Shown in pieces: positions 9,085-21,838 of a stretch of 38,094 bases of DNA. Source of the DNA: Planctomycetota bacterium (GTDB lineage: Bacteria; Planctomycetota; MHYJ01; WSZJ01); the NCBI GenBank assembly GCA_021413805.1, contig JAIOPR010000053.1, forward strand, positions 1 to 38,094, in the 5' to 3' direction. The position numbers and the translations under genes are program-made. The notes under the pieces are model-generated. The model saw only the letters and a program-made list of their open reading frames with translations, was not told where the DNA came from and searched no databases. Within the stretch, counting starts at the first letter, position 1. Each line of letters opens with the position of its first letter.

Positions 9085-12000
9085 TCAGGTCCGCACGGCC
9101 GCTGCCAGGCCCGGCGGAATTGTCTCCTCCGGGACGGGCACCAGCAGCCGCTTCTCCATGATCTTCCGCCCCAGCAGGAGGAACAGCGCCGGGGTCACAA
9201 ACTGGTCCAGCAGTGTGGAAGAAATGAGCCCGCCGATCACGACGATGGCGAGCGGATGAAGGATTTCCTTCCCGGTCTCTCCTTTGCCGAGCGCCAGCGG
9301 GACCAGCCCGATCCCGGCCGTGAGCGCCGTCATCAGCACGGGCGCGAGCCGCTCGATCGAGCCACGGATGATCATCTCGCGGCCGAAAACTTCGCCTTCG
9401 TGCCTCACCAGGTGGATGTAGTGGCTGATCATCATGATCCCGTTTCGCATCACGATCCCCGTCAGCGTGATGAAACCGATCAGCGAAGCGACCGAAAGCG
9501 TGCGGTCGCCGAACCACCAGACGGCGAGAACGCCGCCGACGAAGGCGAGGGGGAGATTGACGAGGCACTGAAGCGCGGCGAGCCACGATTCGAGCGCGCG
9601 GGACAGAAGGAGGAAGATCGCGATCAGCGCGAAGATCGAGAGGACCGCGATCCTCTGCCCCGCGGCGCGGCGCGCTTCGAACTGGCCTCCGTACTCGACG
9701 CGATACCCTGCGGGAAGCTTGAGCCCGGCCTCGAGGGCGCGGATGTCCGCGACGACGGAATCGAGATCGCGGCCCGCGACGTTGCACTGCACCGCGACCC
9801 GGCGCTGCGCCCCTTCCCTGTTGATCGTGTTCGGGCCCGTTGACCTCGCGACGTCGGCGACCGCCGCCAGCGGGATTCGCGCGCCGCCCGGCGCCACGAG
9901 GAGCGTGCGTTCGATGATCTTCGGGTCGCTCCGGGCCGCTTCGTCATACCACACCAGCATGTCGATGGAGCTGTCGCCCTGCAGCACCTGAGAGACCGTC
10001 CGCCCTTTCAGCGCCGTCTCCAGGACCTCCGCCACGTGCCCCGCGGAAAGCCCGTACAGCTTGAGCTGGTCGCGGCGGATGCTGACGCGGACCTCGGGGA
10101 CGTTGAACTGCCGCTCGACCTGCAGGTCCACCACCCCGGGGACCTGCGCCATGCGGTCGGAAAGCACGGCGGCGCGGTCGCGAAGCACCTCGAGGTCCGG
10201 CCCGTAGATCTTCACCGCGAGCTGCGCCCGCACGCCGCTCATCAGGTGGTCGATCCGGTGCGAAATCGGCTGCCCCAGGTTCACGACGGCCCCCGTCATG
10301 TACGACAGCCGCTCCCGGATGTCCGACATGACCTCGTCCCGCGGCCGCCCCGGTTTCAGCACCACTTCGATTTCCGAACTGTTCACGCCCTCCGCATGTT
10401 CGTCCATCTCCGCCCGCCCCGTCCGCCGCGCCGTCGAGACGATCTCGGGGACCTCGTGCAGAAGCGCTTCCGCCGTCGCGCCGAGGCGGTTCGATTCGGC
10501 AAGCGAAGTGCCGGGCTCGGCGATGACGTTGACGGTGAAGGTGCCCTCGTTGAAGGGCGGCAGGAATTCGCCGCCGAGGTGAAAGAACGCGAACGCAGCG
10601 ATGGAGACGCCGATCGCGGGCGGAATCAGGACAAGCCCGGGGAACCGCAGGGCGACGCCGAGGATGCGCCGGTCGGCGGATTTGAGCCAGCGGAGAAGCG
10701 CGGGATCGGCGCGGGGCTCCGTGGCCTTGGCGTGTCCCAGAAGGGCGTACGACAGCGCCGGCGTCACCGTCAGGCTGACCAGCAGCGAAGAGAGCAGCGC
10801 GGTGAGATACGCGTACCCGATCGGCGCGAACAGCCGCCCTTCGATCCCCGCGAGGAACATCAACGGGACCAGCGCCACCGCGATCACGAGCGTCGCGTAG
10901 ACAATCGAATTGCGCACTTCGGCCGAAGCGCGGTACACGACGAGCAGCGGGTTCTCCGGCGCGGCCTTCCCCCGGTTCTCCCGGAGCCGGCGGAAGATAT
11001 TCTCGACGTCCACGATGGAGTCGTCCACGAGCTCGCCGATCGCCACGGCGATCCCCCCGAGCGTCATCGTGTTGATGGAGAGCCCGAACGCGTGGAAAAC
11101 GGCGAGCGTCACGACGAGCGAGAGCGGGATCGCCGCGAGGTTCACGACGGACGTGCGCACGTTCCAGAGGAAGATCAGCAGGATGATGACGACGAGGATC
11201 GTGCCATCGCGAAGAGCGTTCAGGACGTTGTGGATCGACGCGCGGATGAAGGATTCCTGGCGGAAGAGGCGGTTGTTGAACTCGATGTCGGGGTTGGCGG
11301 CCTGGAGTTCGGCGAGGGCAGCATCCACCTCGGCGGTCAGGCGGACGGTGTCGGCCTCCGGCTGCTTCTGGATCGAGAGGATCACCGCGGGCTTGCCGTC
11401 AACGCTTCCGTCCCCCCGTGCGACGGCAGGGCCGAAAGCGACATCGGCGACGTCGCGGACGAGGACGGGGGCCGGGGTGCGCGGGGAGACGACGGCGTCG
11501 CGGACATCGTCGAGCGAGTCGGCGCGGCCGGTGATGCGTATGAGGGACTCGGTGTTGGGCTCGATGAGGAAACCGCCGGCGACGTTGGCATTCGAGTCGC
11601 GAACGGCCTCGGTGAGGTCCTCCAGCGTGACGTCGTGGCGGCGAAGGCGTTCCGGGGTTGTCGTCACCTGGATCTGGCGCAGGCCGCCGCCCATCACCGT
11701 GACCTGCGAGACGCCGGGAACCGACAGGAGCCGCGGCCGCACGGCCCACTCGGCCTTCGACCGGATGTCGATCGGCTTCGCCGACCCGTCCTTCGACGTC
11801 ATCGACACGAGGAGAATTTCCCCCATGATCGAGGAAATCGGCGCCATCTCGGGGCGCGCTTCCACCGGCAGGCGGTCCCTGACCTGGGACATTTTCTCGC
11901 TCACGATCTGCCGGTCGCGGTAGATGTCCGTACCCCAGTCGAATTCGATCCAGACGATCGACAGGCCGACGCCGCTCGCCGAACGGACGCGGCGGACGCC

Positions 12001-12231
12001 GGAAGCGCCGTTGACGGAAGTCTCGATCGGGAATGTCACCAGCCGTTCGACTTCCTCGGGCGCCAGCCCGGGCGATTCCGTCATCACCGTCACCGTCGGC
12101 CGGTCCAGGTCGGGAAGCACGTCGATCTTCATCCCGGCCGCGGTCCACACGCCGTAGACCGACAGCGCCAGCGCGGCCACGAAGACGAGGCCGCGGTGCG
12201 TGAGGGAGAAAGCGATCAGCCTGTTCAGCAT
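9085..12231 (-). CDS. Heavy-metal RND efflux pump (CusA/CzcA family)
   Basis: Inner-membrane proton-driven exporter of 1048 residues, the standard HME-RND length. It has an N-terminal membrane segment, the porter region with DVLPDLDRPTVTV and FPIETSVNGASGVRRVRS, the TM block with GGIAVAIGELVDDSIVDVEN at 392-411, and the second half with GGEFLPPFNEGTFTVNV and a TM block containing LTGIVMRNGIM. The TM4 motif keeps Asp403 and Glu410, equivalent to the conserved CzcA Asp/Glu pair, but has Ala where CzcA has its extra Asp. In this it resembles CusA, which suggests monovalent Cu/Ag rather than Zn/Co/Cd. Specificity remains inference. Last gene of the six-gene operon, 3 bp after the adaptor. Confidence 0.93.
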   Translation of the reverse strand: MLNRLIAFSLTHRGLVFVAALALSVYGVWTAAGMKIDVLPDLDRPTVTVMTESPGLAPEEVERLVTFPIETSVNGASGVRRVRSASGVGLSIVWIEFDWGTDIYRDRQIVSEKMSQVRDRLPVEARPEMAPISSIMGEILLVSMTSKDGSAKPIDIRSKAEWAVRPRLLSVPGVSQVTVMGGGLRQIQVTTTPERLRRHDVTLEDLTEAVRDSNANVAGGFLIEPNTESLIRITGRADSLDDVRDAVVSPRTPAPVLVRDVADVAFGPAVARGDGSVDGKPAVILSIQKQPEADTVRLTAEVDAALAELQAANPDIEFNNRLFRQESFIRASIHNVLNALRDGTILVVIILLIFLWNVRTSVVNLAAIPLSLVVTLAVFHAFGLSINTMTLGGIAVAIGELVDDSIVDVENIFRRLRENRGKAAPENPLLVVYRASAEVRNSIVYATLVIAVALVPLMFLAGIEGRLFAPIGYAYLTALLSSLLVSLTVTPALSYALLGHAKATEPRADPALLRWLKSADRRILGVALRFPGLVLIPPAIGVSIAAFAFFHLGGEFLPPFNEGTFTVNVIAEPGTSLAESNRLGATAEALLHEVPEIVSTARRTGRAEMDEHAEGVNSSEIEVVLKPGRPRDEVMSDIRERLSYMTGAVVNLGQPISHRIDHLMSGVRAQLAVKIYGPDLEVLRDRAAVLSDRMAQVPGVVDLQVERQFNVPEVRVSIRRDQLKLYGLSAGHVAEVLETALKGRTVSQVLQGDSSIDMLVWYDEAARSDPKIIERTLLVAPGGARIPLAAVADVARSTGPNTINREGAQRRVAVQCNVAGRDLDSVVADIRALEAGLKLPAGYRVEYGGQFEARRAAGQRIAVLSIFALIAIFLLLSRALESWLAALQCLVNLPLAFVGGVLAVWWFGDRTLSVASLIGFITLTGIVMRNGIMMISHYIHLVRHEGEVFGREMIIRGSIERLAPVLMTALTAGIGLVPLALGKGETGKEILHPLAIVVIGGLISSTLLDQFVTPALFLLLGRKIMEKRLLVPVPEETIPPGLAAAVRT

Positions 12232-12234
12232 CGG

Positions 12235-14412
12235 TTACCTCAGCGATCCCAGGGCCACGTCGAGCTCGTCCAGCCCGCTGACCGCCACGCGGTCCCCCGG
12301 GAACAGCCCCTGCAGGATCTCCACGTCGCGCGTCCCCCGCCGCCCCGGCACCACGCGCTGCCGCCGGAACGTGTCCCCGTCCTGCAGGAACACGTACCAC
12401 GCTCCCCCGGACGGCCATAGCGCTTCCGGCGGCGCCGCAATCGACCGCTCCGCCGGCTCCGCCGTTACCACGAGAAGTTCCGCGACCATCCCCTCCCGCA
12501 GCTCGCCCCCCGGGTTCGCCACGTCTGCCCAGATCGCCAGCGCATTTCCCGTCCCCACCGCCGGTGCCGTCGCCGAAACCACCGCCGTCCACTTGAGCTC
12601 CGGATACGCCGCCGGCTTCAGGACCGCCCGGCGTCCCTTTGCAGGCGCCCCTCCCGCAAGCACGGCTTCGGAAAGCGCGCCTTCTGCCCGAAGCGCCGTC
12701 GGGTCGGCGATTTCGAAAAGCTGTTCTCCGGCATCGACGACCTGGCCGAGGGAGAGGTCAGCCACGATGACGACCCCGGCGTGCGCGGCACGGACGATGA
12801 CGACATCCTGCGACTTGCGCGCGGACACCGCGGCCGCCACTTCCGATGCCGGCACCCCGACGGCCGCGAGCTTCGCCCGTAATCCCTGCTCCACCACACG
12901 CTCCGACCGCAGTTCGGCCTCAACGCGCAGAAGCTCCTTGCGCGCGGCGATCCCCTTTTTCTCGAGATCCCGCAGCGCCTCGACGCGCTTGTCGAGAAGC
13001 GCCGCGCGGGCTGCGCTTCGGATCAGGTCCACCTCGACCGCCCGGACCTCCGCCGATTCCAGTTCGGCCAGCGGCGCGCCGGCCTCGACGCGATCGCCGG
13101 GGAAGGCGAGGATCTTCCGCACCTTTCCGCCGGCAAGGGTTGAAACGAACCCGGCCGATCCGGGAAGGAAACGGAGCGTCGCGGGGAGGCGAAGCACCGA
13201 TTCGACGGGACGCAGGTCCACGTCGGCGAGGCGCACGCCCTGTTCGCGCAGCTGCTCGATGTGGACGTCGAGCCGTCCCTCGGCGAAGAGAGATGAAAGC
13301 TCGCGCGAGCCGGCGACGACGACCGCTTCGCCCGCCTTGAGCCCGGTGCGGATTTCAATTTCCGCCCCGAGCCGAACGCCGGGCAGCACGGCCTGGCGCC
13401 GGTAGTGGCCGCCGTCGAGCGCGACGAACACGAACCGTTCGAGTCCCTGGTGCGCGACCGACGCGAGCGGCACGATGATGCCGTGCGCGGAACGACGGAT
13501 GATATCGAGTCGCCCCGGCGTTCCCGGCCGGAGTTCGGGCGCGGCACCGAGACGCGCCGCCACCATCAGGGTGCGCGTCCTCGGGTCAACCCGCGCCGCC
13601 ACGCGGTCCAGCGTCGTGTCGAAGGACTTCCCCGGAATCGCCTCAAACGTCGCCCGCGCCGCCCGGCCATCCACCGCGTCCCCCGCGAACAATTCCGGCA
13701 CATCCGCTTCGACCCACAATTCCCGGTCGTCGTCGATCTCGAACAGGTGCCGGTCCGGCGTCACCGTCTGCCCCGGCGCCACGTCCACGTGCACGACAAT
13801 CCCGTCACCGGGCGCCAGCACCGGAAGCAGCTTGACGGGGTCGCCGCCGGCGCGCATCGCCGCCAGGGCCGCGTCCGAAACCCCGGCCAGCGTGAGGCGC
13901 TGCTCCGCCGCCGCCGCGGAAATCCGCCGCTCGTCCACCGCGCCCCGAAGCGCCTCCAGCTCCTGCTCGGGGAGAATCGAGGGCGTCAGCGACTGGGCGC
14001 GCTTGAGGTCGTCCTCGGAAACCTTGAGGTCGTCGCCGGCCTGGCGCCATTGAAGCGCGAGCGATTCCAGCTCGAGCGACTCGATCACGGCCAGCGTGTC
14101 CCCCGCTTTCACGCGGTCGCCCACCGCACCGTTGACCTCGGTCACGATTCCCGTCGCCCTCGCGCTGCCGAAGGACCGGGCTCCCGGGGCCAGCGCGGCG
14201 CGCGCACTGACGGGAAGCAACTCTTCGACAACGCCTTCGCGCGCCGGCGTCGACGTGATCCCGAGCGCCTTCTCGGTGCGCGGATCGAGCTGCAGCAGGT
14301 CCCCTTCCACGCGGACACCTTTCGCCTCCAGCGCCTTGTGCCCCTCGTGGGCGAGGAGAACCAGTGAAGCGGCGAGCGCGACGGCGACAGCGGCCAGCGG
14401 GGGGCGTTTCAT
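12235..14412 (-). CDS. Tandem (fused) RND periplasmic adaptor protein
   Basis: 725-residue exported protein made of two complete membrane-fusion adaptor units; a normal adaptor is about 350-420 residues. An N-terminal signal segment (ALAASLVLLAHEGHKA) precedes unit 1. Unit 1 has lipoyl halves at about 86-115 (ATGIVTEVNGAVGDRVKAG) and 195-228, a helical hairpin between them, a barrel and a membrane-proximal end near 375 (GLKAGEAVVVAG). Unit 2 has lipoyl halves at about 420-450 (GGKVRKILAFPGDRVEAG) and 535-570 (VVDAGEQLFEIAD), a hairpin at 455-525, a barrel and an end near GLFPGDRVAVSG. It should bridge the RND pump and the outer-membrane channel. Its ATG overlaps the stop of the channel gene by 4 bp. 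A fusion or frame error is unlikely because one frame is open throughout. Confidence 0.88.
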   Translation of the reverse strand: MKRPPLAAVAVALAASLVLLAHEGHKALEAKGVRVEGDLLQLDPRTEKALGITSTPAREGVVEELLPVSARAALAPGARSFGSARATGIVTEVNGAVGDRVKAGDTLAVIESLELESLALQWRQAGDDLKVSEDDLKRAQSLTPSILPEQELEALRGAVDERRISAAAAEQRLTLAGVSDAALAAMRAGGDPVKLLPVLAPGDGIVVHVDVAPGQTVTPDRHLFEIDDDRELWVEADVPELFAGDAVDGRAARATFEAIPGKSFDTTLDRVAARVDPRTRTLMVAARLGAAPELRPGTPGRLDIIRRSAHGIIVPLASVAHQGLERFVFVALDGGHYRRQAVLPGVRLGAEIEIRTGLKAGEAVVVAGSRELSSLFAEGRLDVHIEQLREQGVRLADVDLRPVESVLRLPATLRFLPGSAGFVSTLAGGKVRKILAFPGDRVEAGAPLAELESAEVRAVEVDLIRSAARAALLDKRVEALRDLEKKGIAARKELLRVEAELRSERVVEQGLRAKLAAVGVPASEVAAAVSARKSQDVVIVRAAHAGVVIVADLSLGQVVDAGEQLFEIADPTALRAEGALSEAVLAGGAPAKGRRAVLKPAAYPELKWTAVVSATAPAVGTGNALAIWADVANPGGELREGMVAELLVVTAEPAERSIAAPPEALWPSGGAWYVFLQDGDTFRRQRVVPGRRGTRDVEILQGLFPGDRVAVSGLDELDVALGSLR

Positions 14413-15743
14413 TTCGCGAACTCCGACAGCGGGCGCCCGACCGCGGCTTCCAGATCGGCGAGCGCGTCGGCGTAAGCGGCCTCGGCTTCCACCGCTTCGC
14501 CCTGTACCGACTGGAACGATTCCTGGGCCCGCAGGAGTTCGGAGATGGCAACTTCGCCGGCAGCGTACGCCGAGCGGACGTCGTCGATATTGCGCGAAGC
14601 GGACGGAAGGATTTCCTTTTCGTAGAGCGCGAGGACGTCGCCGGCCGCGCGGAGTCGCGCTTCGGCCGCGGAGACATCGCGCCCGACTTCGGAGGCGAGG
14701 GCGGCGTGAAGGGCGATGAACCGGCGGCGATCGGCCTCGGCTTCGGCGATTTCGCCGCGGCGGCGGTTGATGATGGGAAGGGTCAGGGAGAGGCCGAACT
14801 TCACGGAGTGCTCAGAGGTGCGGAAGTCCACGCCGTCGCCCTCGATCCGGTCGCGGCCGAATTCGTAACCGATTCCCACGCCGAGATCGGGGGCGGCCTC
14901 GGCTTCCGCCAGCCGGGCGCGAGCGTCCGACTCTTCGGCGGCGGCATTGAGGGCGGCGAGGTCGGAGCGGTTCCCCTGGGCCGCGGCGAGGGCCTTCGAG
15001 AGGTCCACTTCGGGGCGGTCCGCGGTGAAGTGATCGGAGAGGTTCCAGGTCGCCGGGACCTCACCGGGAACGAAAGCCATGAGGACAGCGCGGGCGGAAG
15101 CGGCCTCTCCTTCGGCACGCCGGACACCGGCGCGGGCCTGACCGGCGCCGACCTTCGCGAGGTTCACGTCGATCGCGGCCGCCTGGCGGGCGTCGAACCG
15201 CGCGGTCGCGACCTCGACAACTTTGTCCGCGGTCTCGGCAGCTTTCCGGGCGATTTCTACGCGCCGTTCGGCCGCGACGGCCGACCAGTAGGCCCGCCGG
15301 GCCTTCCCGCCGAGATCGCGCCGCATGTCTTCGGCTTCCGCGGCTGATCGCGTGATTCCCGCGTCGGCGACGGCCTCGCGTTTTCCCACACGCCCCCCGA
15401 GTTCAAAGGTCTGGTGGAGACCGATCCCGAGCGTCGTCGTGTCCCCGTCCACGCTCTGCGCGCCGTCGAACGAAACCTCCGGGTTCAGCGGGTACGTTCC
15501 CGCCGTCACCCGCCGCGCCCGCGCCGCTTCCAGGTCCTCCAGCGCCGCGAGGACGCGGCCGTGGCGGCTGATCGAGGACATGACCTCGGCGAGCGAGAGG
15601 CCGTCGGACCAGTCGATGGCCGCGGGAGCCGGCGCAGCTTCGCCGGGCCGGGCGTCCGGCGGGCGTTCGGTGAATGCCCGGGGCGCGGGGGAAGCGCACC
15701 CCGCGAGGGTGACGGCGGCGATCGCGGCACAGGTTTTCATCAT
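14409..15743 (-). CDS. TolC/CusC-like outer-membrane efflux lipoprotein
   Basis: 444-residue outer-membrane channel subunit for the RND system. The start chosen is the first ATG of an ATGATG pair, preceded by GGAGG 7 bases upstream. The signal ends in a lipobox LAGC with Cys16, so the mature protein is probably lipid-anchored. The rest is a long, Ala/Glu/Arg-rich alpha-helical coiled-coil array in two homologous halves with LSLTLPIINRRRGEIAEAEA, a typical outer-membrane efflux motif, near residue 305. Another landmark is LHQTFELGGRVGKREAV near residue 115. It lies 19 bp after the cytochrome gene and overlaps the adaptor gene by ATGA. Together the three form the tripartite pump. Confidence 0.9.
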   Translation of the reverse strand: MMKTCAAIAAVTLAGCASPAPRAFTERPPDARPGEAAPAPAAIDWSDGLSLAEVMSSISRHGRVLAALEDLEAARARRVTAGTYPLNPEVSFDGAQSVDGDTTTLGIGLHQTFELGGRVGKREAVADAGITRSAAEAEDMRRDLGGKARRAYWSAVAAERRVEIARKAAETADKVVEVATARFDARQAAAIDVNLAKVGAGQARAGVRRAEGEAASARAVLMAFVPGEVPATWNLSDHFTADRPEVDLSKALAAAQGNRSDLAALNAAAEESDARARLAEAEAAPDLGVGIGYEFGRDRIEGDGVDFRTSEHSVKFGLSLTLPIINRRRGEIAEAEADRRRFIALHAALASEVGRDVSAAEARLRAAGDVLALYEKEILPSASRNIDDVRSAYAAGEVAISELLRAQESFQSVQGEAVEAEAAYADALADLEAAVGRPLSEFAK

Positions 15744-15762
15744 GGCAACTCCTCCGAAGTTT

Positions 15763-17049
15763 TTATTTCTCATGGGGGCACTTCTCTCCCGTCAGGTGCA
15801 TCCCGCGGCACCGGCACTGGCCGGCGACGTCCACCATCGCGCAGACGCCGATTCGCACGCTGCACGGGCACGCCCGGTCGGGCCGCGGGACGGACAGCGA
15901 GCGGATGTGCTCAACCAGCGCGTCAACGTCTTCCCGCGACAACGTTTCGAACGCCGGCATCGAGCCCGAAAGGTTCCAGTGCAGCCCGCCCCGCGCGATC
16001 ACTTCCCGCAGGTACTCGTCGGACAACGTGTTCATCCGGTCCCCGTCCGCGAAATTCCGGGGGCGGAAGGGCCCTTCGACGATCCCGGGGCCCAGGCCGC
16101 GGCCGGTCGCGCCGTGGCACCGCGCACAGTTCGCGAGGAAGAGCGTGCTCCCGGCGTTCTTCGGCGGGTTTCGCAGCACCGCCTCCGCCTCGATGACGTT
16201 TTCCTCGTACCCCGCCAGGGATTCGCGCAGGCGCGTTTCCGAGGCCTCGATCACGCTCCTCAGGATCCGCTCGGCCTCCGGGGCTCCTTCCAGCACCCCG
16301 CGCCCCAGGTTCTCAAACCACCGGTCCACCGCTTCCGGCTCGATCCCCCGGACCCGCACCCGCTTGTGCGTCTCCGCCGACACCAGCCGCGCGTCCGGCC
16401 CGAACGCGAGCGACATCCCGATCCGCACGCCTGCGACTTCAGCGGACGGATACATCATGTACCCGGCGATCCCGCCCTTTTCGTCCTGCAGCCCGTGAAC
16501 CGCCACCCGACGAACGCCGCCCCCGGCACGGGCCAACCGCTCGTCAGACAGGATCGTCTCGCGGTCCACCACCTTCGCGTGCGGCGGCGCTCCCGACGGC
16601 ACCGGCGGAGCGAGGGTCCGCACGTAGGCCACCAGGGCCCATATCTGAAGCGCATCGAACCGGTCGTCCCAGCGCGGCATCAGCTTCGAGCGGCCGACCT
16701 CAGGCCCGCCGCCGCGAATGGCCTCGAACAGGTTCTCGTCGCTGCGAGCGTTCATGTAGGAAGCGTCGGAATGATCGCGAGGGCGGGGCCAGAGCGAGGC
16801 GGCGGCCGGGCCGTCACCCGCGCCCCCCGTGCCGTGGCAGGTCGCGCAGTGGACCTGGTAGAGCGCCCTCCCCGCGTCCGGATCGCCGGGCAGCACGCCG
16901 TGCCGCACGCGCTCCTCCAGCCAGACGACCGCCGGGGGACGCGCCTCCCGCACCGGCTCGGCGGCCCGCCTCCCCCACGGCGACAACGCCACCGCGGCGG
17001 CGACCAGCACCGCACCCACCACGAGCACGCCGCCCGTGCGCGCCTTCAT
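15763..17049 (-). CDS. Di-heme cytochrome c with central unknown domain and Cys-rich tail
   Basis: 428-residue exported cytochrome. An N-terminal signal/anchor (VLVVGAVLVAAAVALSP) is followed by a cytochrome c domain with CATCH (C68, C71, H72) and a distal Met candidate in KLMPRW. A second cytochrome c domain has CARCH (C308, C311, H312) and GSMPAF. Between them, residues ~155-270 form a heme-free region (GGIAGYMMYPSAEVAGVRIGM... ) that faintly recalls FMN-binding periplasmic domains. After the second heme domain, residues 394-428 carry six Cys and two His in CxC, CxxxxxxxxCRC and CPHEK patterns, a likely metal-binding tail. The start ATG 17049 overlaps the upstream stop (ATGA). The position inside the metal-efflux operon suggests periplasmic redox coupled to metal handling; this is inference. 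Confidence 0.85.
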   Translation of the reverse strand: MKARTGGVLVVGAVLVAAAVALSPWGRRAAEPVREARPPAVVWLEERVRHGVLPGDPDAGRALYQVHCATCHGTGGAGDGPAAASLWPRPRDHSDASYMNARSDENLFEAIRGGGPEVGRSKLMPRWDDRFDALQIWALVAYVRTLAPPVPSGAPPHAKVVDRETILSDERLARAGGGVRRVAVHGLQDEKGGIAGYMMYPSAEVAGVRIGMSLAFGPDARLVSAETHKRVRVRGIEPEAVDRWFENLGRGVLEGAPEAERILRSVIEASETRLRESLAGYEENVIEAEAVLRNPPKNAGSTLFLANCARCHGATGRGLGPGIVEGPFRPRNFADGDRMNTLSDEYLREVIARGGLHWNLSGSMPAFETLSREDVDALVEHIRSLSVPRPDRACPCSVRIGVCAMVDVAGQCRCRGMHLTGEKCPHEK

Positions 17050-18011
17050 TTCGCCGGCTCCACCCGCGGAAACCGCGACAGATCCCGCACAATGTCCCAG
17101 CGGAATTTCAGGTGGCACTTCAGGCAACTCTCTTCGTCCAGCTTGCGCATCTGCGCCCGGACCCCCGCGTAGTCGCCCTTCGCCCCCAGCGCCCCCAGCG
17201 CCGCCAACGGCGCGGCCAGATCCTCCCCGTAACGCACGAACTCCGGCTTGTCCTCCTCGTTGACGTGAAGCATGAATTGCGGGAGCCGCTTACGTTCGTC
17301 CTCGATGCGCCCGACGGAAGCGGCGATCGCGGCGCGGTCGGGCTTTTCCTTCTCGATCTCGACGCCGAGGGCAAGCCACTCGCGGCCGAAGCGGCGCATG
17401 ACTTCGTGCTGGCGGGCCATGTCGAACGGGCGGTCCTCGGGCGCCGGGGGCGGCGCGGCGACGGGCTTGAAGGACCCGATCAGCCTCACCGGGTCGCCCG
17501 CGGCGGTCGTTGCCTCGACAACAAACCTGGTTTCTTCTTCGCGTTCCGCGAGATGAAGCGCTCCATAGATGCGCCCCGAAACCGGCTGGAGGCGGACAGC
17601 GACCTCGCGGGGGGCGTGATCGCGGTCCACGTCGTAGAAGTGGACGACGGCGTCCTTGAGCTCGACCGGCGAGGACTCGTCCACGCCGTCGCCCTTGCGC
17701 GGGGCGAACAGTGCGCGCAGCCGCACTTCGGTCCCGACCGCCGGGGATCCGGGGTCGATCGTGACGACGAAGGCCCCCGCTCCCGACCATCGCTGGATGC
17801 GGACCACCGACACGTATTTCGCCGGGTCTGCGACAAACTGGGCGTGCTCCGACTCCTGGCAGAACCAGTATTTCTTCCCGAGATAGTCCGCCGTCGCCGG
17901 GGCGTGCTCGGGATCGATCATCATCCCGCAGACGGGGTCGCGCACGGGATCGTGCGCGAACGCGACGGCCGGGATGAGGGAAAGCGCCAACGAGAGCGTG
18001 AGCTTCCACAC
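17046..18011 (-). CDS. Exported YHS-domain protein with C-terminal cytochrome c'-like domain
   Basis: 321-residue exported protein. GTG 18011 is chosen: it follows CAGGTG and opens a clean signal peptide ending AVAFA|HDP; GTG 18029 is an alternative. Residues 21-67 are a YHS/TRASH-like metal-binding domain (DPVCGMMIDPEHAPATADYL, then YWFCQESEHAQFVADPAKYV). The middle (about 70-190) is a beta-rich region of unknown type. Residues ~198-321 are helical and end with CLKCHLKFRWDI (C296, C299, H300), the C-terminal heme site pattern of four-helix cytochrome c'. YHS domains occur with copper and heavy-metal transport, so it may sense, bind or deliver metal in the periplasm. Second gene of the operon. 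Confidence 0.85.
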   Translation of the reverse strand: MWKLTLSLALSLIPAVAFAHDPVRDPVCGMMIDPEHAPATADYLGKKYWFCQESEHAQFVADPAKYVSVVRIQRWSGAGAFVVTIDPGSPAVGTEVRLRALFAPRKGDGVDESSPVELKDAVVHFYDVDRDHAPREVAVRLQPVSGRIYGALHLAEREEETRFVVEATTAAGDPVRLIGSFKPVAAPPPAPEDRPFDMARQHEVMRRFGREWLALGVEIEKEKPDRAAIAASVGRIEDERKRLPQFMLHVNEEDKPEFVRYGEDLAAPLAALGALGAKGDYAGVRAQMRKLDEESCLKCHLKFRWDIVRDLSRFPRVEPAK

Positions 18012-18072
18012 GGGAGCACCTGGGTACACGGGGACCGCGAAATAAAAACATCGACGCGGAATGCCCGGCGCG

Positions 18073-18450
18073 CTAGATCAGCAGCGTCCTGTGAAGCGTG
18101 AACAAGGGAATGTCCGGTCCTCGCCCTGGCGGCCCCTCAAACGGCGCCGGGACCACCGTCAAGCCGGCATGGAGAACTTCAACAACAGCCGGCGCATCGA
18201 TTTCCGGCAGCGGAACCTGGAGCGCCGGCTCGTCCAGGACGGCGACGTGCCCGCCATCCGAGCAGCAGCACTCATCCCGGGCCGGCGCGGGAGACTTCGG
18301 CTCGTGCTCGTCGTGCTTCGCACAACAGGAGCGCACCGGCTTCTTCCCCGCTTCCGCCACCTGCGCCATCGACGCCGCGCACACGCTCGAAGCGACCTGG
18401 GCCGCGAAGAACGCGAGGGCGACGAGAGGCGATAGCCGGCGGAACTTCAT
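18073..18450 (-). CDS. Small exported Cys/His-rich protein, first gene of metal-efflux operon
   Basis: 125-residue protein with a signal peptide (MKFRRLSPLVALAFFAAQVASSVCA). It is followed by a Cys/His cluster, SCCAKHDEHEP...RDECCCSDGGH at about residues 41-68, then a Pro-rich tail. Seven cysteines, including CC and CCC, with interspersed His and acidic residues suggest metal binding; I know no named family for it. ATG 18450 is chosen over GTG 18459 because AGGG lies 8-12 bases upstream. It starts the operon, 61 bp before the YHS/cytochrome gene. A role as a periplasmic metal chaperone, sponge or sensor is inference. The cluster could also be structural disulphides. Confidence 0.72.
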   Translation of the reverse strand: MKFRRLSPLVALAFFAAQVASSVCAASMAQVAEAGKKPVRSCCAKHDEHEPKSPAPARDECCCSDGGHVAVLDEPALQVPLPEIDAPAVVEVLHAGLTVVPAPFEGPPGRGPDIPLFTLHRTLLI

Positions 18451-20403: not shown

Positions 20404-20475
20404 TTCGCCACATGAACGAGTCCGCCCCCTCGCATTCATCCGTTGTTCATCGAATATTGAGAATTGAAATTTGCG

Positions 20476-20493
20476 CATTGATCATTCGTCCGT
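20476..20493. repeat. Second, inverted copy of the ATTGATCAT intergenic repeat
   Basis: The reverse complement here is identical over 18 bases to 3979-3996 (acggacgaatgatcaatg). It lies in the 145-bp gap between the HDAC-like gene and the CPPC thioredoxin/PDZ gene, inside a wider AT-rich stretch (20450-20500) unlike the surrounding GC-rich DNA. An AAGGTG motif is also shared about 10 bases to one side of both copies. Confidence 0.7.
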
Positions 20494-20548
20494 TCGTATG
20501 TCACCTTGTCCGCCTTCGCCACCCCCCGTCCCCCTTCGAGCCTCCCCC

Positions 20549-21838
20549 ATGAAACCCCTCTGCCTCGTCGCCTTCGCCTTCCTGCTCGCCCTTTCCGCCG
20601 CGCTTCTCTCGACCGCCGGCGATCCCGCGGCAAAGGCAAAGGCGGCGAAAGACACCGCCGAGCTTTCGCCCGCCTGGATCTACGACGACCTCCCCGCCGC
20701 GGTCGAGCAGGCGAAGAAAGAAAACAAGCCGCTCCTCGCCGTCTTCCGCTGCCCGCCCTGCAAGGAGCTGAAGTCCTTCGACGAGAAAGTTGCGAAGCTC
20801 GACGGCGAGCTCGCCGAGATTTCGAAATCATTCGTCTGCGTCCGCCTGATCCAGATGCGCGGGCTGGACACCGCGGTCTTCCAGTACGATTTCGACCAGA
20901 CCTGGTCCGCGATGTTCCTGAACGCCGACATGACCGTGTACGGGCGTTACGGCTCGCAGGCCGGGGGCGGCGACAAGACCGAGATCCTCTACTCGGTCGC
21001 CGGGCTCAAGGCCGCGATGGAACGCGCCGCGGCGATCCACAAGGCGTACCCCGGCAACAAGGAAACGCTGAAGCCGAAGCAGGGGAAGGCGTACCCGTGG
21101 AAAACCGCCGAGTCGATGCCGTCGCTCCAGGAGCGCTACAAGGACGACAATTTCCCGAAGAACTGCATCCACTGCCACATGGCCTGGAAAGGCGTGCGGC
21201 GCAGCATGCTCATGCAGAAGACGCCGCTTCCCGATTCGCTCATCTACGTCTACCCCTTCCCGGATTCATTCGGGATGCGGATGGACGCGGTGGACGGGGT
21301 GAAGGTTACTGAAGCGGTGAAGGACTCGCTCGCCGCGAAGGCCGGACTGGCTGCGGGGGACGTGGTCGAGACGATCGGCGGAGCGCCCATCGTTTCGCTC
21401 GCGGACATCCAGTTCGCTCTTCAGAATTGCGCCGACAATGAGTCGCTGAAAATCAGCGTGGCGCGCGGTGCCGAAAAGAAAACATTCACGGTCGCGCTGT
21501 GCGGCGATTGGCGCAAGTCGACCGAGATCTCGTGGCGCGAATCGGCGGGCGACCTGCGCCCCGGGTTTCCCTCGGGCCCGCTGACGGCCGAAGAGCGGAC
21601 GGCGGCCGGGGTGAAGGAAGGCGGCCTCAAGATCCTGCGGATGCACGAGCGGAGCAGTGGCAGGAAACTTGGGTTTGTGGAGGGCGACATCCTTGTCAAA
21701 GTCGGGGGCGAACCGGTTCCCGCGACCGAGAAGGAATTCCTCGCGCTTCTCCGGCAGAAGTTCCTGCTGGGGCAGAAGGTGAAGTTCGAGCTGGTGCGGG
21801 ACGGGAAGAAGACGGAGCTGTCGATCGACATTCCATGA
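20549..21838 (+). CDS. Secreted thioredoxin-fold/CXXCH/double-PDZ protein, cysteine (CPPC) form
   Basis: 429-residue exported protein. After a signal peptide (LVAFAFLLALSAALLSTAGD) comes a thioredoxin-like domain with VFRCPPCKELKSFD (C68, C71) and the family-specific MRGLDTAVFQYDFDQTW. A CIHCH heme-type motif follows (C206, C209, H210). Two PDZ-like domains complete it, at about 241-335 (AAKAGLAAGDVVETIGGAPI) and 345-429 (KLGFVEGDILVKVGGEPV). It is probably a periplasmic thiol-disulphide protein that may bind heme c. NCBI uses a family name of the type Trx7/PDZ domain-containing (seleno)protein for such proteins, as I recall. Start ATG 20549 begins the signal peptide; the frame upstream to 20471 runs into the repeat. 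Its paralogue 530 bp downstream has UGA at both active-site Cys positions. Confidence 0.87.
   Translation: MKPLCLVAFAFLLALSAALLSTAGDPAAKAKAAKDTAELSPAWIYDDLPAAVEQAKKENKPLLAVFRCPPCKELKSFDEKVAKLDGELAEISKSFVCVRLIQMRGLDTAVFQYDFDQTWSAMFLNADMTVYGRYGSQAGGGDKTEILYSVAGLKAAMERAAAIHKAYPGNKETLKPKQGKAYPWKTAESMPSLQERYKDDNFPKNCIHCHMAWKGVRRSMLMQKTPLPDSLIYVYPFPDSFGMRMDAVDGVKVTEAVKDSLAAKAGLAAGDVVETIGGAPIVSLADIQFALQNCADNESLKISVARGAEKKTFTVALCGDWRKSTEISWRESAGDLRPGFPSGPLTAEERTAAGVKEGGLKILRMHERSSGRKLGFVEGDILVKVGGEPVPATEKEFLALLRQKFLLGQKVKFELVRDGKKTELSIDIP

Follow-up and report, generated by a model that had tools for sequence, protein, structure and literature searches.

A metal-efflux operon of Planctomycetota with a tandem periplasmic adaptor and two linked cytochromes

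The window, that is, the whole stretch of 38,094 nucleotides that was analysed, is a contig of a Planctomycetota metagenome-assembled genome and contains six genes packed tightly on the minus strand between positions 18450 and 9085, in the 5' to 3' order small Cys/His-rich protein, YHS cytochrome, di-haem cytochrome, TolC, CusB and CusA. A six-gene set of pump and cytochromes had been proposed at this place in an initial annotation, and all six open reading frames were found on the minus strand together with both of the gene overlaps it had given: 17046-17049, in which the start codon ATG 17049 of the di-haem gene and the stop of the YHS gene form an ATGA, and 14409-14412, between the CusB and TolC genes. 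A glycerate kinase gene on the same strand ends about 80 bases upstream of the set, a P-type cation ATPase gene (Cation_ATPase_N/C type) follows downstream, also on this strand, and a scan of the neighbouring genes gave no metal regulator. Upstream of the operon, on the opposite strand, positions 20471-21838 encode an exported thioredoxin-like and PDZ protein with a CxxCH motif. The features of the operon are the following:

9085-12231, minus strand: CusA/CzcA-family RND permease (HME-RND), from TIGR00914 and alignment to E. coli CusA
12235-14412, minus strand: tandem periplasmic adaptor, a single chain with two modules of the CusB/HlyD type, from family profiles and sequence comparison
14338-14349, minus strand: HEGH motif of the adaptor (aa 22-25), directly after the signal peptide
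14409-15773, minus strand: outer membrane efflux protein of the TolC/CusC type (PF02321, OEP, 137.8 bits)
15763-17049, minus strand: di-haem cytochrome c, 428 aa, from class I cytochrome c profiles and AlphaFold
15766-15879, minus strand: Cys-rich tail of the di-haem protein (aa 391-428), six Cys and two His, from comparison of relatives
17046-18029, minus strand: YHS cytochrome with signal peptide, YHS domain, Ig-like domain and cytochrome c'/b562-type four-helix domain, from profiles and AlphaFold
17085-17420, minus strand: cytochrome c'/b562-like haem bundle (aa 204-315), from CLKCH at aa 302-306 and fold matches
17463-17807, minus strand: Ig-like domain (aa 75-189), from a fold match to H. 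pylori CrdA
17808-17945, minus strand: YHS domain (aa 29-74), PF04945, 35.8 bits against a cut-off of 30.3
18073-18450, minus strand: small exported Cys/His-rich protein, 125 aa from ATG 18450, from its position and Cys/His clusters

By family profiles, the pump is a genuine tripartite efflux system of the HME-RND (CusA/CzcA) type, the permease scoring 765.4 bits against TIGR00914 (cut-off 701.45) and 466 bits against the structure of E. coli CusA (3k07). The earlier term CusABC-like therefore stood as far as a tripartite RND pump is concerned. It did not stand in its Cu(I)/Ag(I) sense, since alignment to E. coli CusA and relatives showed that the three-methionine site M573/M623/M672 of E. coli CusA (named in PMC8092243) corresponds to N568/S618/H662 in the permease, with E625 kept as E620. 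Because the methionine triad is replaced, the pump is not a typical Cu(I)/Ag(I) exporter. The N568/S618/H662 pattern, E620 and the TM4 motif, GELVDDSIVDVEN, are common to the close relatives in genomes G002 and G003, and much of this also occurs in G025 and in two pump-only relatives; a second, divergent pump of G025 (L033) has the canonical methionines. Two class assignments were rejected, namely the CusA-type Cu(I)/Ag(I) class (HME4), given the missing triad and the finding that none of the six proteins has a CusF-type domain (though the role of CusF may fall to another protein), and the HME1/HME2 (Czc/Cnr) class, for which a passage of PMC3637150 gives DFG-DGA-VEN as the TM4 motif. For HME3b the literature passages gave no TM4 motif, and the pump was not assigned to an HME class on their basis. 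The metal of the pump cannot be named from sequence.

The adaptor has 725 aa and gave a match of 203 bits to RND_mfp. It contains two modules, aa 72-373 and aa 398-713, the first of which resembles ZneB/CusB, while the second aligns over MacA, and as judged by these comparisons two CusB-like modules are naturally fused in tandem here. This had been overlooked in the initial annotation, as had the loss of the Cu(I) methionine triad from the permease. A Planctomycetota-wide search recovered such double adaptors in full length from 10 genomes and as a contig-edge fragment from an eleventh (G004), the other matches being single-module proteins. HEGH or HAGH was found straight after the hydrophobic stretch of the signal peptide and a small residue in all ten full-length tandem adaptors. 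Since the motif adjoins the signal peptide, the mature adaptor probably begins with His, its N-terminus being judged by a sequence rule and not by a signal-peptide program, and the HEGH sequence is a candidate metal site. The TolC-type protein is probably a lipoprotein, with an internal ATG as its start codon.

The YHS cytochrome has its likely start at GTG 18008, and its signal peptide ends in AxA followed by a His, the predicted mature N-terminus. This His is predicted in 6 of 6 pump-linked YHS cytochromes and in none of the 6 pump-free ones. Cys34 and Cys57 of the YHS domain are conserved; the third TRASH cysteine is missing from the pump-linked domains of the genus and of G025, and the full C-x22-C-x3-C TRASH pattern is kept in the pump-free copies. 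The Ig-like domain of the AlphaFold model could be superimposed on CrdA (9ll4_A) with Z 12.2 over 105 aligned residues, rmsd 2.4 and 9% identity, but it carries neither Met nor Cys ligands and lacks the Met motif of CrdA. The C-terminal bundle agrees with the earlier description as cytochrome c'-like in its CxxCH, invariant among YHS cytochromes, and in the fold of its AlphaFold model, which matches cytochrome cb562/c' with Z 12-14, a value only moderately specific for a helical bundle; against the cytochrome c' profile PF01322 it scored 19.4 bits, under the gathering score of 26.5. Position 211 is Met in most copies and His208 is invariant; either may be the axial ligand of a bound haem, position 211 falling, from the aligned ranges, where cytochrome b562 has its axial Met.

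In the di-haem cytochrome the listed reading frame begins at TTG 17127, the likely start being ATG 17049, and the protein is either membrane-anchored or exported. The two class I cytochrome c domains (aa 55-150 and aa 296-387) gave 86.8 bits to PF13442 and 80.2 bits to PF00034, and in both the CxxCH and the distal Met-Pro (M124, M364) are invariant. CxxCH together with a distal Met is the usual ligand set of electron-transfer cytochromes. Between them, aa 153-293 form a domain whose nearest folds, in the AlphaFold model, are NqrC/RnfG (Foldseek E 0.13, probability 0.75-0.82; 8rb9_G Z 10.2, 120 aligned). Membership of the FMN-binding NqrC/RnfG family was rejected, since the likeness is one of fold, no Pfam match was obtained and the covalent flavin attachment motif (S/T-G-A-T type) is absent from aa 153-293. 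Pfam likewise gave no real match when the isolated middle domain and the isolated Ig domain were searched. The models of this protein and of the YHS cytochrome were built from 10-11 sequences only, with pTM 0.74 and 0.45, respectively. The Cys-rich tail, predicted earlier along with the two haem domains and found here, is present only in the three same-genus operons and in G023, being absent from G025 and from the pump-free copies.

The first gene, noted before as encoding a small Cys/His-rich exported protein and indeed present from ATG 18450 to 18073, specifies the clusters CC-K-H and ECCCSD-H. Its product has no Pfam match and no confident NCBIfam match; relatives occur at the same position in L031 and L032, and a small protein of the CCC type in G023 (L036). 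It is a probable periplasmic metal-binding protein.

A check of the gene order in other genomes, suggested in the initial annotation, showed it repeated in two further genomes of the genus: G003, like the window's own genome G000, has all six genes in order, and G002 has the same order but lacks TolC in the operon. In these two other genomes the identity of the cytochromes and pump proteins is 49-83%. Two further Planctomycetota lineages carry the arrangement. G025 has the order YHS cytochrome, di-haem, CusB, CusA, with TolC last, and a second pair of YHS cytochrome and di-haem genes followed by a TolC-like reading frame at a contig end. G023 has it split over two contigs, one with small protein, YHS cytochrome and di-haem genes, ending in a TolC-type N-terminus right after the last of these, the other starting inside a TolC gene and continuing with tandem CusB and CusA; an exact overlap between the two was searched for and not found, and we infer that they join into one operon. 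Of 392 Planctomycetota genomes, 9 encode the full-length YHS cytochrome, and the di-haem protein is encoded in these same 9; the trees of the two proteins split alike into a pump-linked and a pump-free clade, with support of 100/99. A peptide-pattern scan of the whole GTDB gave full-length relatives in G002 and G003 alone; as G023 and G025 escaped it, it does not exclude other phyla. The plasmid search yielded no full-length YHS cytochrome, its matches being YHS domains from copper ATPases and the like.

In the CusA tree the cytochrome-linked pumps are scattered among pumps without cytochromes, which forces at least two changes; the module was therefore gained or lost more than once, and the pump works without it. 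Five other Planctomycetota genomes (G041, G178, G044, G226, G123) have the pump without these cytochromes, and G001 and others have the related cytochrome pair without the pump. As each occurs alone, the cytochromes are an accessory module and not an obligatory part; the earlier view that they are built into a metal-efflux operon thus held for their linkage in several lineages, their own clade and their own sequence features, but not as a fixed composition. In four genomes of the genus (L037, L039, L040, L041) the pump-free pair has a yidC-type gene for a membrane insertase and further housekeeping genes as its neighbours.

Other proteins take the place of the cytochromes beside the sister pumps. 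The double-adaptor pumps of G041, G178 and G044 (L091, L092, L093) are followed by His-rich exported helical proteins, some with an HMBD (heavy-metal-binding) domain, and in G226 the gene immediately preceding that of the double adaptor (L095, 10895-13549) encodes a P-type ATPase of the copper type that carries two YHS and two HMBD domains. Periplasmic metal handling is thus the constant theme of this neighbourhood, in agreement with such a role for the slot. A separate observation concerns G023, where in both YHS genes near the pump (L036 4923 and L094 7052, each on the reverse strand) an in-frame TGA coincides exactly with the position of the second conserved YHS cysteine. With a tRNA-Sec (75 bits) in the same genome, selenocysteine is likely in these proteins; the hairpins downstream of the TGA are no stronger than those of shuffled sequence. 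YHS selenoproteins have already been listed (PMC9312934, PMC2398784).

The operon was compared with several known systems. It shares with CusCFBA of Escherichia coli (HME4, Cu(I)/Ag(I) efflux) the tripartite RND pump with adaptor, outer membrane channel and periplasmic metal-binding accessories, but differs in the absence of the Met triad, in that no CusF domain was found, in the fused adaptor and in the two haem proteins of the operon. A further likeness is to the ZneCAB/CzcCBA-type divalent cation pumps, the permease resembling ZneA and the first adaptor module ZneB; from these pumps the operon is set apart by GELVDDSIVDVEN in place of the TM4 motif given in the PMC3637150 passage, by other accessories and by the adaptor fusion. 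In TriABC-OpmH of Pseudomonas aeruginosa, too, two distinct adaptor modules serve one RND pump (PMC8277102), but these are the products of two separate genes in a drug pump, whereas here both lie in one chain of a metal pump. The CrdAB-CzcBA efflux system of Helicobacter pylori (PMC12319023, PMC9182242) is a metal RND pump whose operon includes the exported Ig-fold protein CrdA; the Ig domain described here shares that fold, but CrdA is a single-domain protein with a Met-rich site and no haem, and here the domain is fused to YHS and cytochrome domains. Kusta0087/Kusta0088 of Kuenenia also pair a c'-type four-helix cytochrome with a class I partner, yet are single-domain proteins, no YHS, Ig or NqrC-like domain occurring in the matched chains. 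The open-access literature searched, an incomplete set, gave no description of the combination of pump, YHS cytochrome and di-haem protein.

The reading we favour, if with some hesitation, is that of a tripartite HME-RND exporter for heavy metals, belonging to a Planctomycetota subtype whose double adaptor is fused, and equipped with its own periplasmic proteins for metal capture and electron transfer. In the periplasm the small Cys/His protein and the YHS cytochrome would capture a thiophilic or borderline metal, copper being the likeliest, the latter through the YHS cysteines and the mature N-terminal His. The haem of the four-helix domain would exchange one electron with the bound metal, and the di-haem cytochrome would relay this electron between that haem and the respiratory chain, in one direction or the other. 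Once in the valence accepted by the pump, the metal would be delivered to CusA by way of the HEGH N-terminus of the double adaptor and leave through TolC. Oxidation of Cu(I) to Cu(II), with the electrons passing towards a terminal oxidase, would be the weakly preferred direction. In favour of this reading are the conserved gene order, the shared occurrence and matching clades of the two cytochromes, the haem-ligand motifs of the class I domains, the CrdA fold, the predicted N-terminal His residues and the metal-handling proteins beside the sister pumps; against it are the replaced Met triad, the missing Met motif of the Ig domain, the third TRASH cysteine lost from the genus and G025, and the scatter of cytochrome-linked pumps in the CusA tree.

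It is also conceivable, though on balance unlikely, that export proceeds with no redox coupling at all, the YHS cytochrome acting as a metallochaperone analogous to CusF with an incidental haem, the di-haem protein buffering or sensing metal by its Cys tail, and the pump exporting a divalent or soft cation as delivered. The N-terminal His and Cys sites would suit such a hand-over, and the sister tandem-adaptor pumps have haem-free accessories with HMBD, YHS, His-rich and helical domains nearby; homology of their haem-free bundles to the haem bundle is, however, unproven (hhalign probability 12%), and the invariant CxxCH and Met-Pro of the di-haem protein and CxxCH of the YHS cytochrome are hard to explain without electron transfer. 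Some functional link in metal handling, with or without a redox step, is nevertheless likely.

A poorer account of the locus, by analogy with the anammox proteins Kusta0087/Kusta0088, is that the cytochromes serve a respiratory or stress function, such as the handling of NO or peroxide, and merely share the transcript of the pump. The folds do match the Kusta0087/0088 chains (6r6m_A, Z 13.4; 6r6m_B, Z 11.8), though many other cytochromes score alike, and the related pair that stands alone near housekeeping genes would suit this account. Against it, the pump-linked copies form a separate clade with a mature N-terminal His, have the Cys tail in two of three lineages and are linked to the pump in all three. 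The YHS domain, moreover, is frequent on copper-type ATPases. A fortuitous neighbourhood, for which the pumps and related pairs found apart might be quoted, is highly improbable and largely rejected because the arrangement recurs in three lineages (the genus, where the order is kept, G023 and G025), the ATGA overlaps also speaking against it.

It is tempting to take the favoured exporter with its own capture and electron-transfer proteins one step further and to speculate that the pump-dedicated cytochromes change the valence of the metal, with the respiratory chain as sink or source, before the double adaptor hands it over; this stricter form is possible, but we would regard it as rather doubtful. 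The coupling of a metal redox change or of respiratory electron flow to export, put forward in the initial annotation, is compatible with the predicted parts and plausible but unproven.

HME-RND efflux is already known; what is new is the double adaptor and the dedicated cytochromes. The natural tandem adaptor offers a ready test of the trimer-of-dimers model of RND adaptors because its sequence would fix both positions of each dimer. In the well-studied cases of Gram-negative copper defence, multicopper oxidases oxidise periplasmic Cu(I) and Cus exports it. A redox-coupled exporter, if true, would replace the multicopper oxidase (CueO/PcoA) route used elsewhere, and with cytochromes of its own such a pump would tie metal efflux directly to respiration.
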